Origin: a virus
Direction: 5' to 3' (one strand)
Length of the DNA stretch: 36,428 nucleotides
IMG/VR virus record: IMGVR_UViG_3300007539_000067
Coordinates: 1-36,428 of that record
Under the pieces are notes generated by a model. That model worked only from the letters and a program-made list of their open reading frames with translations. It was not told the origin of the DNA and made no database searches. Shown here piece after piece: positions 3,553 to 33,179 of the stretch; position 1 is the stretch's first letter; every line of letters begins with the position of its first letter. The translations under genes were made by a program, and so were the position numbers.

Positions 3553-4752
3553 TTATAGACCAAGTAGTGCGTTTTGTTGCTCTTCATTTAGTAATATACC
3601 GTTTTCCCTAAGAGTCTGAATCGTATTAGCGTTAATGTTCATTGTTTCAGCTTCTTCTTTCTTGTCTTTTGCAAGCACATCAACACCGCTAAAGTCAGGG
3701 CATAAATACATTCCTTCTTTATCTAGGTCTAATTGTCTACCTATCTCGGCATACATCGCTGTAGTATCTGGTATAATTGTACTTCTGTACGCTTGTTTTT
3801 CTCCCATTTCAACGTTACTAAACGTTTGCCCTTTGTTGTCGATTGGCGCGAACATATTAACGTTTAACCCGTACGCATCAATAATGGCTGCTTTGTCTGC
3901 TGTCATTTCTTCAAACAACATAAGGTCTTTTGTGGGGAATGACATAGCATCCCACTTAGCTTTCTTGTCTGTTATAATTACCTTTCCTTTGTTTCTACGC
4001 ATTAAATCTTTCTGCATTTCTTGCTTTTCCTTGTCATCAATTGGAAGTGACGAAATACCATCGTTATTATCCATAGATAAAATACCCAGTGCAAACAGAT
4101 TCTTTAAAAGTACATTACGCTTTTCGTAAGTCTTAGCAATATTTGACAATGGGTATTTAAGTGCATCAAGTCTTGAATTAGTATTGAATAAGTTGATACC
4201 ATCTGGACGAGCTACGTAAATAACTTCATTCGGTTTAAATGTTTCAAAACTATTCATGTTATTTAATGGCACTTTGAACGAATCAATTATACCATTAACA
4301 GAAATCTGCTTATAACTCTTGCCAGTAGGAACAATCTTAACATTATTGTATGCAATAGGTGTAATACTGTATGTTTCGAAAGTACCTTTATTCTTTAGTG
4401 CAAGGTAGTTATTAGTAATGCAATCGTTAACAGCAAGAAAGTAAATAAAGTCTTTCCATGACTGCATAGCATTTGGTCGTTCTAATAAGTTAAAAATAAA
4501 ATGGTTGTTAGATTCAATTATAGCGCCTTCGGAATCTTTTATCACTGGTTGTGCTGACGCTACCATGTTAGAATATCTATTTATAACCGCTTGAAGTTCT
4601 GGTATTTGGTCGTAAAGAATAAACTTATTAGTGGTATCTATCCATTCTGGCACTGTGTCGCCTACTTGTTGAAAAGTGTAATAGTTGTTTTGTGTTGCAC
4701 TGTTATAACCAAATAAACGGTTAACTGCATCAATGATTCCAAAGTATCTCAT
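3553..4752 (-). CDS. Portal protein, HK97 type
   Basis: A 399-residue portal, the dodecameric ring at the head vertex through which DNA passes. Family signs include NRYSNMVASAQPVIKDSEG, the NHFIFNLLERPNAMQSWKDF block, FKPNEVIYVARPDG, and the C-terminal domain with DAYGLNVNMFAP followed by TFSNVEMGEKQAYRSTIIP. Length is normal for HK97-like portals. It is the only gene on the minus strand, between the terminase and the protease, which are both on plus. It has its own promoter candidate at 4775-4782. No truncation is visible, so it should be functional despite the inversion. Confidence 0.93.
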   Translation of the reverse strand: MRYFGIIDAVNRLFGYNSATQNNYYTFQQVGDTVPEWIDTTNKFILYDQIPELQAVINRYSNMVASAQPVIKDSEGAIIESNNHFIFNLLERPNAMQSWKDFIYFLAVNDCITNNYLALKNKGTFETYSITPIAYNNVKIVPTGKSYKQISVNGIIDSFKVPLNNMNSFETFKPNEVIYVARPDGINLFNTNSRLDALKYPLSNIAKTYEKRNVLLKNLFALGILSMDNNDGISSLPIDDKEKQEMQKDLMRRNKGKVIITDKKAKWDAMSFPTKDLMLFEEMTADKAAIIDAYGLNVNMFAPIDNKGQTFSNVEMGEKQAYRSTIIPDTTAMYAEIGRQLDLDKEGMYLCPDFSGVDVLAKDKKEEAETMNINANTIQTLRENGILLNEEQQNALLGL

Positions 4753-28913: not shown

Positions 28914-30317
28914 ATGAAAACAAAACAAACAAAACAGGCAAAACTTTTTACTGATAAAGTAGAAATGTTTAATGTAGAATCTGTCATAGGTTCTGGCTAC
29001 GAAGAAGAGGTGGCAAAACTTGCAATAGAGGATAAAATAGCATACAGGGCAGCACGTAAAAATATGCAAATTCACAGCGCAATTATATTAAAAATAAATG
29101 ATGAGTTTGCAGGTTTTTTTACTTACGAAATAAATCATGAAGCTAAAGAATACTGTTTATTGCAATCAGCAATGTATCCAAGGTTTGTAGATGTTGATAT
29201 ATACCAACAGATGGTCAATAAAATAATTGAGGGTAATGTTTATGGGTACCCAATGATTATGACAGTATCAAAAAAGCATAAATTAGAAAAACCTTCAGTA
29301 TTTGAGGAAATAGGTTTTAAAGTAAATATAGATAAAAACGACTTCAAATACATGTACTATGGAGAGCCAGAGCAAGTAAGAATGAAGCTGTTAGCACATA
29401 CAGCAATGACTAATCTATGGAAGTCTACATCTGGACTATGGTTAGCCAACAAAAGAAAATGGAATGAACAAATAGAAAATGCTGGTTTAAAGCATAATGT
29501 ACCAAACCCTAAATTTGCAAGTCGTGAAGGATGTTGGCAAGGTTCAAAAGGGTTTTCTAATGTTGTTTTGTCAAAGAATGAAATTAAAGATGGTAAAGTA
29601 GTACACAATAATAAAAAGTCTTTGAATGGTAACGCATCTGTATTAGACCCTACAGCATGTGAAATTATAGCTCGTTTTTGTATGCCAAAAGGGGGCAGTC
29701 ATATTTATAATCCTTTTGGTGGAGGTGTTCAAATGGGTTTTGTTGCTGGTGGATGTGGATTTTCTTACGAGTCATCAGAAATAAGACAAAACCAATGTGA
29801 TACAAATAATGCTATTTGCAGTGATTTTGAAGATGTAAAGTGGACTAAATCCGACACGTCAAAATATATTCCAGAAAGAGAAAGTGATTTAGTTTTTAGC
29901 TGTCCACCTTATTACAGAGTAGAAAAATATGTTGATTATGATGGGTTACCACCAGAGGGAGAAATAAACCATCTAGGTACATATGAAGAGTTTAGAGATA
30001 CTTTATTTGAGGGTTACAAAAACGCTATAAGCAAAATGAAGGATAATACTTTTTTTGTTGTCATGACAGGTGATAGCAGAGATAAAAAAGGTGCTTACTA
30101 TGGTGTAGAAGCTGAACACGAACTATTTTTTAAAAATCAAGGGCTTCATATTTACAATAAAATTATTTTCCTTGAAAGTGAGTTTACAAGATTTTCACAA
30201 GCAAAAAAGACTCTGCACAACAGAAAATATCCAAAGGCTGACCAAAAAATCTTTATGTTTTACAAAGGTGATATGAGTAAAATAAAAGAATTATACCCAA
30301 ATATTGGAAGATTATAA
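28914..30317 (+). CDS. GNAT-like domain fused to a DNA methyltransferase
   Basis: A 467-residue protein. Residues about 25-160 look like a GNAT acyltransferase fold: a beta hairpin with NDEFAGFFTYEI, a long helix DIYQQMVNKIIE, and the closing VFEEIGFK. Residues about 200-460 are a DNA methyltransferase of the phage modification type: DPTACEII, the SAM loop NPFGGG at 266-271, the catalytic SCPPYY at 329-334 (cysteine where N, D or S is usual), and a C-terminal RKYPKADQKIFMFYKGD. Base composition is more AT-rich than its neighbours, suggesting transfer. The radical-SAM gene follows after one base. Likely makes a modified base, possibly beyond simple methylation. Confidence 0.8.
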   Translation: MKTKQTKQAKLFTDKVEMFNVESVIGSGYEEEVAKLAIEDKIAYRAARKNMQIHSAIILKINDEFAGFFTYEINHEAKEYCLLQSAMYPRFVDVDIYQQMVNKIIEGNVYGYPMIMTVSKKHKLEKPSVFEEIGFKVNIDKNDFKYMYYGEPEQVRMKLLAHTAMTNLWKSTSGLWLANKRKWNEQIENAGLKHNVPNPKFASREGCWQGSKGFSNVVLSKNEIKDGKVVHNNKKSLNGNASVLDPTACEIIARFCMPKGGSHIYNPFGGGVQMGFVAGGCGFSYESSEIRQNQCDTNNAICSDFEDVKWTKSDTSKYIPERESDLVFSCPPYYRVEKYVDYDGLPPEGEINHLGTYEEFRDTLFEGYKNAISKMKDNTFFVVMTGDSRDKKGAYYGVEAEHELFFKNQGLHIYNKIIFLESEFTRFSQAKKTLHNRKYPKADQKIFMFYKGDMSKIKELYPNIGRL

Positions 30318-30318
30318 T

Positions 30319-31110
30319 ATGAGGGAGTATAAAAAATCAATTACACTTACACAGAACTCTAGGGGAATATGGTCATTAGACACTACCCTAGGGTGTGTTG
30401 GTGGCACTAAAAAAGATAAAAAGGGTTGTTATAGTGATTGCTATGCAGCCCGTACAGCAAAAAAATACGGTTACGATTTTAGTAAATTAGTATTGAGAGA
30501 TTTTGATAATGAAAAACATCTAAAAGAAATAAAAAATAAAATAAAAAAAGTAGATTTAAAATTTATTAGAATAGGTACTAATGGTGACCCTAGTGATAAT
30601 TGGGAACATACAATAAAAATAATACAAAAAATATGTTCAGATAGACAATTAAAACTATTTGATTATCAAGATAGACAAATTGTAATAATAACTAGGCATT
30701 GGAATAAGTTAACTGATGAACAACTTGCTATAATAAAAAAATACAATATTTGTATTAATACATCAATTTCAGCTCTAGACGATATTAAATTAATTAACCA
30801 TTGCTATGAACAGTATTTAAGATTAAAACCTTATTGTAAAAGTGTTTTAAGAGTAATTACAGCTGACTTTAATTTGAAAAATGACGAAGGGTTAGAAAGG
30901 TTGAAAATTCAAAAAAAACTACTAGAAAATGAAAACGTAATAGATACTGTCTTTAGGGTTTATAAAAACAGTCAATTTGTAAAGAAAGGTATAATTAACA
31001 TACATAAAACTAAGTTCTTAGGTAAGAAATGTTATGTAAGCAAATACAATAAAAAAACATATTTTGGTAAGTGCAAAAACTGTCTAGAAATGTGTGGTAT
31101 TAATCTATAA
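30319..31110 (+). CDS. Radical-SAM-like enzyme with extra cysteine cluster
   Basis: A 263-residue protein starting one base after the methyltransferase stop. The N-terminal block has cysteines C26, C37 and C41 (spacing C-x10-C-x3-C, then YAAR), similar to the GC...GC..CYA motif of the phage Gp37/Gp68 (DUF5131) radical-SAM group rather than canonical C-x3-C-x2-C. Later strands (KFIRIGTNGDPSDNW, QIVIITRHWNKLT) fit a TIM-barrel. C238, C252, C255 and C259 at the C-terminus could bind a second iron-sulfur cluster or zinc. Probably acts with the upstream methyltransferase on DNA. Confidence 0.7.
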   Translation: MREYKKSITLTQNSRGIWSLDTTLGCVGGTKKDKKGCYSDCYAARTAKKYGYDFSKLVLRDFDNEKHLKEIKNKIKKVDLKFIRIGTNGDPSDNWEHTIKIIQKICSDRQLKLFDYQDRQIVIITRHWNKLTDEQLAIIKKYNICINTSISALDDIKLINHCYEQYLRLKPYCKSVLRVITADFNLKNDEGLERLKIQKKLLENENVIDTVFRVYKNSQFVKKGIINIHKTKFLGKKCYVSKYNKKTYFGKCKNCLEMCGINL

Positions 31111-32816: not shown

Positions 32817-33179
32817 ATGACACGAATAAACGCAAACATTCCAGTAAAAGAATTAACAGGTAAGCACTTATTAGCAGAACACCGAGAGATTAAACGAATA
32901 CCTAACACAATTACAAGCGGTAAAGCAAAGTTAGAAGGTATTCCGAAAGTATTTAAGTTAGGAACAGGACACGTAAAGTTCTTTTACGATAAGCAAAAGT
33001 TTCTGTTTCGTCGTTACTTGGAATTATACAACGAATGTATTTATCGAGGTTTTAAAGTGACTAATTACGCAAACGCATGGGACGGCATACCCTCTGACCT
33101 TTGGAACGATTACGAGTTTAGCGAACAAGAAAACGACATAGTTAGAGAAAGAATAAAGCAAAGATTAACTAACAGTTGA
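32817..33179 (+). CDS. denV: Pyrimidine-dimer DNA glycosylase, T4 endonuclease V family
   Basis: A 120-residue base-excision repair enzyme that cuts at UV-induced pyrimidine dimers. The hallmarks of T4 DenV are present: MTRIN at the start, so that Thr2 becomes the N-terminal nucleophile, HLLAEHREIKRIP with catalytic E24, then FKLGTGHVKFFYDKQKFL and ECIYRGFKV. It is slightly shorter than T4 DenV (138) and lacks part of the C-terminal tail. The leader is A/T-rich. Suggests a phage exposed to sunlight, with DNA repair during infection. Confidence 0.92.
   Translation: MTRINANIPVKELTGKHLLAEHREIKRIPNTITSGKAKLEGIPKVFKLGTGHVKFFYDKQKFLFRRYLELYNECIYRGFKVTNYANAWDGIPSDLWNDYEFSEQENDIVRERIKQRLTNS

Follow-up and report, generated by a model that had tools for sequence, protein, structure and literature searches.

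The window, the whole stretch of 36,428 nucleotides that was analysed (IMG/VR virus record IMGVR_UViG_3300007539_000067), carries two adjacent genes, one for a protein joining a GNAT-like domain to a methyltransferase-like domain with a CPPY motif (protein 1; family GNAT-CPPY) and one for a radical-SAM-fold protein (protein 2; family rSAM-a), and the pairing of GNAT-CPPY with a radical-SAM gene was found to be near-obligate in many uncultured phages. We give about an even chance to the reading that the two genes act together as a phage cassette for hypermodification of DNA bases, in which alkylation by the methyltransferase-like domain and functionalisation by the radical-SAM protein would shield the phage DNA and the GNAT-like domain would serve for binding. 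The co-occurrence evidence for a real and widespread phage module is strong, and the module is apparently previously undescribed: a literature search of partial coverage returned nothing linking radical SAM with phage DNA hypermodification, or with Mom and an acetyltransferase, and an earlier prediction may exist.

The earlier note on this DNA had placed two open reading frames, one base apart, at 28914-31110, and both are present there. The following features were assigned:

28914..30317, plus strand: GNAT-like/CPPY methyltransferase-like fusion protein, 467 aa (open reading frame; phrog_498, E 6e-38; AlphaFold2 model; 145 distinct relatives)
28959..29360, plus strand: GNAT-like domain, residues 16-149 (secondary structure; Z about 15 to RimI, NatC and GCN5; P-loop in 0/145)
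29601..30314, plus strand: methyltransferase-like domain, residues 230-467 (Trm11/TrmN, Z 17-18; phrog_498 and phrog_12517)
29709..29726, plus strand: motif I NPFGGG, SAM binding (145/145 distinct relatives)
29901..29912, plus strand: motif IV CPPY, Cys330 first (143/145 relatives; 11/11 rows of the distant-homologue alignment)
30319..31110, plus strand: radical-SAM-fold protein, 263 aa from ATG (AlphaFold2, pLDDT 89; spore photoproduct lyase, Z 11.6; start from relatives and sequence)
30394..30441, plus strand: CX10CX3C, C31/C42/C46 in TTG numbering, presumed radical-SAM [4Fe-4S] ligands (invariant in the alignment; CX9-11CX3C in distinct full-length relatives)
31072..31095, plus strand: C-terminal CX2CX3C, C257/C260/C264, probable auxiliary Fe-S or Zn site (invariant in the alignment; 120/126 distinct relatives)

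The stop codon TAA of protein 1 ends at 30317 and is followed, as TAA-t-ATG, by an ATG at 30319. The listed reading frame of protein 2 begins at TTG 30304 (268 aa), and its real start is almost certainly the ATG at 30319 instead, because relatives begin there and it lies one base after the stop of protein 1. Purifying selection was observed on both genes (dN 0.09-0.12 and 0.32-0.38, dS 1.3 to saturated), and their evolutionary distances are correlated (r 0.55, against at most 0.13 in 1000 permutations), as is expected anyway for adjacent genes inherited together. Near the two genes, at 32817-33179 of the window, lies a match to the PHROG family of the endonuclease V N-glycosylase UV repair enzyme (E 7e-35).

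Strict co-occurrence, together with the fusions and the exchange of partners, supports the functional link that had been proposed between the two genes. Of the 108 distinct GNAT-CPPY proteins with a length of 400 aa or more, rSAM-a was directly downstream in 77, upstream in 2 and fused N-terminally (rSAM-GNAT-MTase) in 11, and a second radical-SAM family, rSAM-b, was downstream in 15, one of which (L101) has only an 88-aa remnant of it. A fused chain in L017 has 786 aa. Contig ends account wholly or partly for the three proteins with no radical-SAM partner: the gene in L021 starts 49 bases in from the edge of the contig, and L022, to which it is most closely related, has the radical-SAM gene upstream; the gene in L165 begins at contig base 3 and groups with the fused proteins; and in L133 the next gene is a tandem GNAT-CPPY paralogue cut by the contig end. 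Scans of IMG/VR returned four loci with protein 2 as query, eighteen with protein 1 and 80 with each of the alignment queries, and wherever the locus is not interrupted by a contig end, rSAM-a adjoins or is fused with GNAT-CPPY. A further scan that targeted the divergent half of the rSAM-a family gave 80 loci; of the 73 newly fetched, 71 had an adjacent or fused GNAT-CPPY and the other two (L342, L398) were contig-edge cases. Sequencing or intron artefacts were considered for the split gene and rejected, since it is seen at few loci only (e.g., L004, L031). The bacterial and archaeal genome collection yielded five loci only, their assemblies being labelled as Massilibacteroides, Desulfobacula, Smithella, Desulfobacterales and, in one case, an unnamed bacterium, which would fit phages of anaerobes, and a tblastn search of 50,697 phage records with protein 2 gave no match, so that rSAM-a is absent there at that sensitivity.

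Protein 2 had been described as radical-SAM-like, with a CX10CX3C cluster and a second C-terminal cysteine cluster, and the predicted structure agrees with this description. The model was most similar to spore photoproduct lyase (rmsd 4.4 over 224 residues), followed by viperins (Z 10-10.6) and RlmN (Z 9.6), with TYW1 and MiaB also matched, and the rows listed were radical-SAM enzymes. The alignment shows no variation at any of the six cysteines, and full-length relatives retain them as CX9-11CX3C and CX2CX3C; where the latter was not seen, in six of 126 distinct relatives, the protein is truncated or the stretch searched in a long chain ends before it. Protein 2 is presumed to be a radical-SAM enzyme on the basis of its fold and cysteines. 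The profile searches gave no significant radical-SAM match: protein 2 had no meaningful Pfam match, PF04055 matched 0/15 rSAM-a members at E up to 1, the spore photoproduct lyase model TIGR04070 matched none of the 15, no Elp3 model was among their NCBIfam matches at E up to 0.5, and PDB sequence searches with the rSAM-a and rSAM-b profiles found nothing. Although spore photoproduct lyase is the nearest fold, rSAM-a has CX10CX3C instead of CX3CX2C, and carries the C-terminal CX2CX3C in addition.

The second family, rSAM-b, occupies the slot of rSAM-a and has the canonical CX3CX2C, with matches to PF04055 (E 9.5e-12) and, among the models of SplB/PA0069-type radical-SAM proteins (NF033668, TIGR04470), to NF033668 (E 2.5e-23). 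Comparison of the rSAM-a and rSAM-b profiles gave no significant alignment, and the two are treated here as distinct families, with a motif order that looks similar by eye. On a tree made by a quick method and containing some long branches, the distribution of rSAM-b takes 10 changes to explain, 6 or more of them forced by well-supported branches, and that of fusion takes 5, with 4 or more forced. The repeated changes to rSAM-b indicate that different radical-SAM families repeatedly fill one slot, and no other observation argues as strongly as this exchange that radical chemistry is part of the system.

The two genes could also be independent in function, with plain DNA methylation by protein 1 and an unrelated, co-regulated radical-SAM repair enzyme of, for example, the photoproduct-lyase type. 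The best fold match of protein 2 is in line with such a combination, as is the presence in the same phage of a protein whose PHROG family bears the annotation UV-repair endonuclease V, but fusion in a single chain and repeated exchange of the radical-SAM type are hard to explain by co-regulation, and rSAM-a separated from the methyltransferase was seen only at contig ends. We hold this explanation to be very unlikely.

At 77 further loci, rSAM-b was found with GNAT-CPPY at 14, with a ParB-domain protein lacking CPPY at 31, with a ParB-CPPY protein at one, with a CPPY-profile protein in which no ParB was detected at one, and with none of these at 30. The 31 viral loci at which this PA0069-like protein lies beside ParB proteins lacking the CPPY methyltransferase (within L178-L254) apparently represent a separate rSAM-ParB module.

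The methyltransferase domain that had been recognised in protein 1 from NPFGGG and SCPPYY was recovered as a class I methyltransferase fold, with Trm11/TrmN first and Trm11, TrmN and Trm14 at Z 16-18. Sequence profiles detect only this half of the protein: the phage DNA-methyltransferase family phrog_498, which shares CPPY, matches it, and PF01555 matches at 24 bits, just below the cut-off of 26.7, which the ParB relatives pass at 33-51 bits. For the GNAT half and for protein 2, no sequence profile names either with confidence. The motif IV of the PF01555 N4/N6 DNA amino-methyltransferases, [DNS]PP[YFW], is replaced by CPPY in 143/145 relatives. The cysteine, which the earlier note had taken for an odd substitution, is thus the family norm, also present in all 11 proteins of the distant-homologue alignment (nine of them distant phage relatives) and as FSCPPY in 63/66 distinct ZRG1-like relatives; the idea that it is a special feature unique to protein 1 was rejected. 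A C-terminal basic patch, RKxPKxxQ, is also conserved in the relatives.

A homologous methyltransferase-like domain, with invariant CPPY and motif I, is found in phage ParB-MTase proteins (phrog_498; Enterococcus phiFL3A gp36, Listeria B054 gp77, Mycobacterium phage Vincenzo gp1). These differ from protein 1 in that the N-terminal domain is ParB and not GNAT, and the partner is a SpeD homologue, a PLP enzyme or none, and rarely a radical-SAM protein. The N-terminal ParB domain of phrog_498-type methyltransferases was not found in protein 1, where the GNAT-like domain stands in its place. Because the methyltransferase domain belongs to a phage DNA-methyltransferase family usually fused to ParB, DNA is the likeliest target of the cassette as judged from sequence.

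The nearest folds of the methyltransferase-like domain, the tRNA m2G enzymes Trm11/TrmN and Trm14, would instead fit a cassette acting on tRNA or rRNA, in which this domain alkylates or methylates a base and the radical-SAM protein adds a second group, aiding translation or evading anticodon nucleases. The similarity of protein 2 to RlmN, TYW1 and MiaB (Z 8-10) points the same way, as does the occurrence of radical-SAM and GNAT together in tRNA biology in the form of Elp3 (PMC13315578). This reading is considered unlikely, as the sequence family is that of the phage DNA methyltransferases of phrog_498 with their ParB fusions, profile searches detected no RNA-binding domain, and rSAM-b often lies beside ParB proteins (31/77).

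The N-terminal domain of protein 1 had been called GNAT-like, and the AlphaFold2 model (mean pLDDT 74) bore this out, with the canonical GNAT order of strands and helices at residues 16-149 and Z about 15 to solved structures (RimI, NatC, ElaA, GCN5) over 130-135 residues at rmsd 2.2-2.6. The PDB sequence search with the GNAT profile gave a meaningless match only (E 0.59). Conserved motifs of the domain are AYRAARKNMQ and E[FY]CLLQS, and the acyl-CoA pyrophosphate loop [QRK]xxGx[GA] was found in 0/145 GNAT-CPPY members. The proposal that this domain elaborates the base is therefore not supported if it is read as active acyl transfer, although a domain that has lost the loop may still bind another ligand. 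The loop is present only in the tandem second GNAT-CPPY protein of L133 (L133:5254-5871, truncated by the contig end), which keeps it in canonical form as KWKGNGLA and has a weak Acetyltransf_1 match (E 0.0023), supporting descent of the domain from a working GNAT. A search for further relatives of this paralogue found none.

A relationship to phage Mu Mom had also been suggested. Mom resembles the domain in being a GNAT-superfamily enzyme acting on phage DNA, likewise with no canonical RxxGxG loop by eye, but no sequence relation was found: the Mom Pfam profile (PF25680) did not match protein 1 at E up to 1 (Mu Mom itself, 2.4e-75), and comparison with Mom showed that its invariant HYS and ELxR are absent from the GNAT-like domain. 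Mom also has no methyltransferase domain. Homology to Mom was rejected, the GNAT-domain profile having given nothing against the single Mu Mom sequence and the Mom profile no match.

Elp3, in which radical-SAM and GNAT can together modify a base (PMC13315578), has the two domains in one chain and in this order, as do the fused relatives, whereas in the window they are encoded by separate genes. The cassette differs from it in having no Elp3 profile match and no CoA loop, in its extra methyltransferase domain and in its cysteine spacing. By analogy with Elp3, the GNAT-like domain might provide acetyl or acetate from acetyl-CoA and the radical-SAM protein a carbon radical that adds to a DNA base, with the methyltransferase-like domain placing or methyl-esterifying the group. 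Such carboxymethylation or acyl-radical chemistry draws on the order of domains in the fused relatives, the GNAT fold and the L133 paralogue, but the CoA loop missing from 145/145 members argues against a direct copy of Elp3, no Elp3 family match was obtained, and the radical-SAM protein has other cysteine spacing and a nearest fold like that of spore photoproduct lyase; we regard it as quite unlikely.

Among distant CPPY relatives, whose N-terminal domain is usually ParB, other enzymes lie next to the CPPY gene. A gene for AdoMet_dc (PF02675; SpeD homologue) directly follows it in P2559S and ZRG1, and a SpeD homologue adjoins 57/80 CPPY genes of the phage ZRG1 branch. PALP-type PLP enzymes adjoin CPPY genes in Vincenzo and Mae-JY30, and in Pseudanabaena phage Pam4 (L173:1012-3498) a PALP domain is inserted within the ParB-CPPY methyltransferase itself, between motifs I and IV. 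One contig (L220) carries rSAM-b, ParB-CPPY and SpeD consecutively. The SpeD homologues, PLP enzymes and radical-SAM proteins beside CPPY genes suggest that the CPPY family is a DNA-acting core with exchangeable chemistry partners. The pair of ParB-CPPY and the AdoMet-decarboxylase homologue (L255-L334; L169, L170), often with terminase genes next, is possibly a separate DNA-modification module, and one contig with a GNAT-CPPY/rSAM cassette also carries a second CPPY methyltransferase with an AdoMet-decarboxylase homologue (L079:2671-3916, minus strand).

It is conceivable, and is put forward only tentatively, that the CPPY transferase attaches larger SAM-derived groups to the bases of DNA, for instance aminocarboxypropyl, or aminopropyl taken from decarboxylated SAM. 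SpeD, PLP enzymes and two kinds of radical-SAM protein would be its plug-in partners, and in the branch of the window radical chemistry acting directly on DNA would install the modification. Ornithine or arginine, and not AdoMet, is the substrate of many phage SpeD homologues (PMC10407285), so decarboxylated SAM would be only one donor option. A precedent for SAM-derived donors and tailoring enzymes in phage DNA hypermodification is provided by CmoA/CmoX/CmoY, in which a methyltransferase homologue works with a SAM-derived donor and a tailoring enzyme, often near ParB (PMC12783734). CmoX differs from protein 1 in being a C5-cytosine methyltransferase homologue with SPPC in place of CPPY and carboxy-SAM as donor, and the tailoring is by an amide ligase as opposed to the radical enzyme of the cassette (PMC12783734).

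For the hypermodification cassette we infer a DNA substrate, an order of steps, a chemistry and a protective effect, next to the folds, motifs, linkage, fusions and swaps that were observed. The CPPY domain would bind SAM or a SAM-derived donor and alkylate a base in DNA, and the radical-SAM partner, close by or in the same polypeptide, would then generate a 5'-deoxyadenosyl radical that functionalises a C-H bond of the base or of the substituent just added. The GNAT-like domain, in the position of ParB and with no acyl-CoA loop, may be a substrate- or DNA-binding module and not an ordinary acetyltransferase, which is a guess. Phage DNA carrying the product would be protected from nucleases of the host. 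Two SAM-binding enzymes together could also serve counter-defence by depleting SAM or modifying proteins, in which case no nucleic acid would be modified. Phages do deplete SAM (PMC7877911), but the DNA-methyltransferase-type core, the invariant motif IV and the basic patch suggest a nucleic-acid substrate, and counter-defence of this kind is highly improbable.

If the hypermodification reading is right, the cassette would be a widespread and apparently undescribed disguise of phage DNA in which a radical enzyme works with a methyltransferase-like enzyme, and a large phage family annotated as plain DNA methyltransferase may perform different chemistry. The cassette is also relevant to the role of GNAT folds that no longer bind CoA, and the candidate list is short, two genes or one fused gene, which can be directly expressed and assayed. 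Elsewhere in the window, a portal-protein gene (3553-4752, PHROG match E 2e-26) lies on the minus strand, with the flanking terminase and major head genes on the opposite strand, an arrangement that is unusual for a tailed phage.
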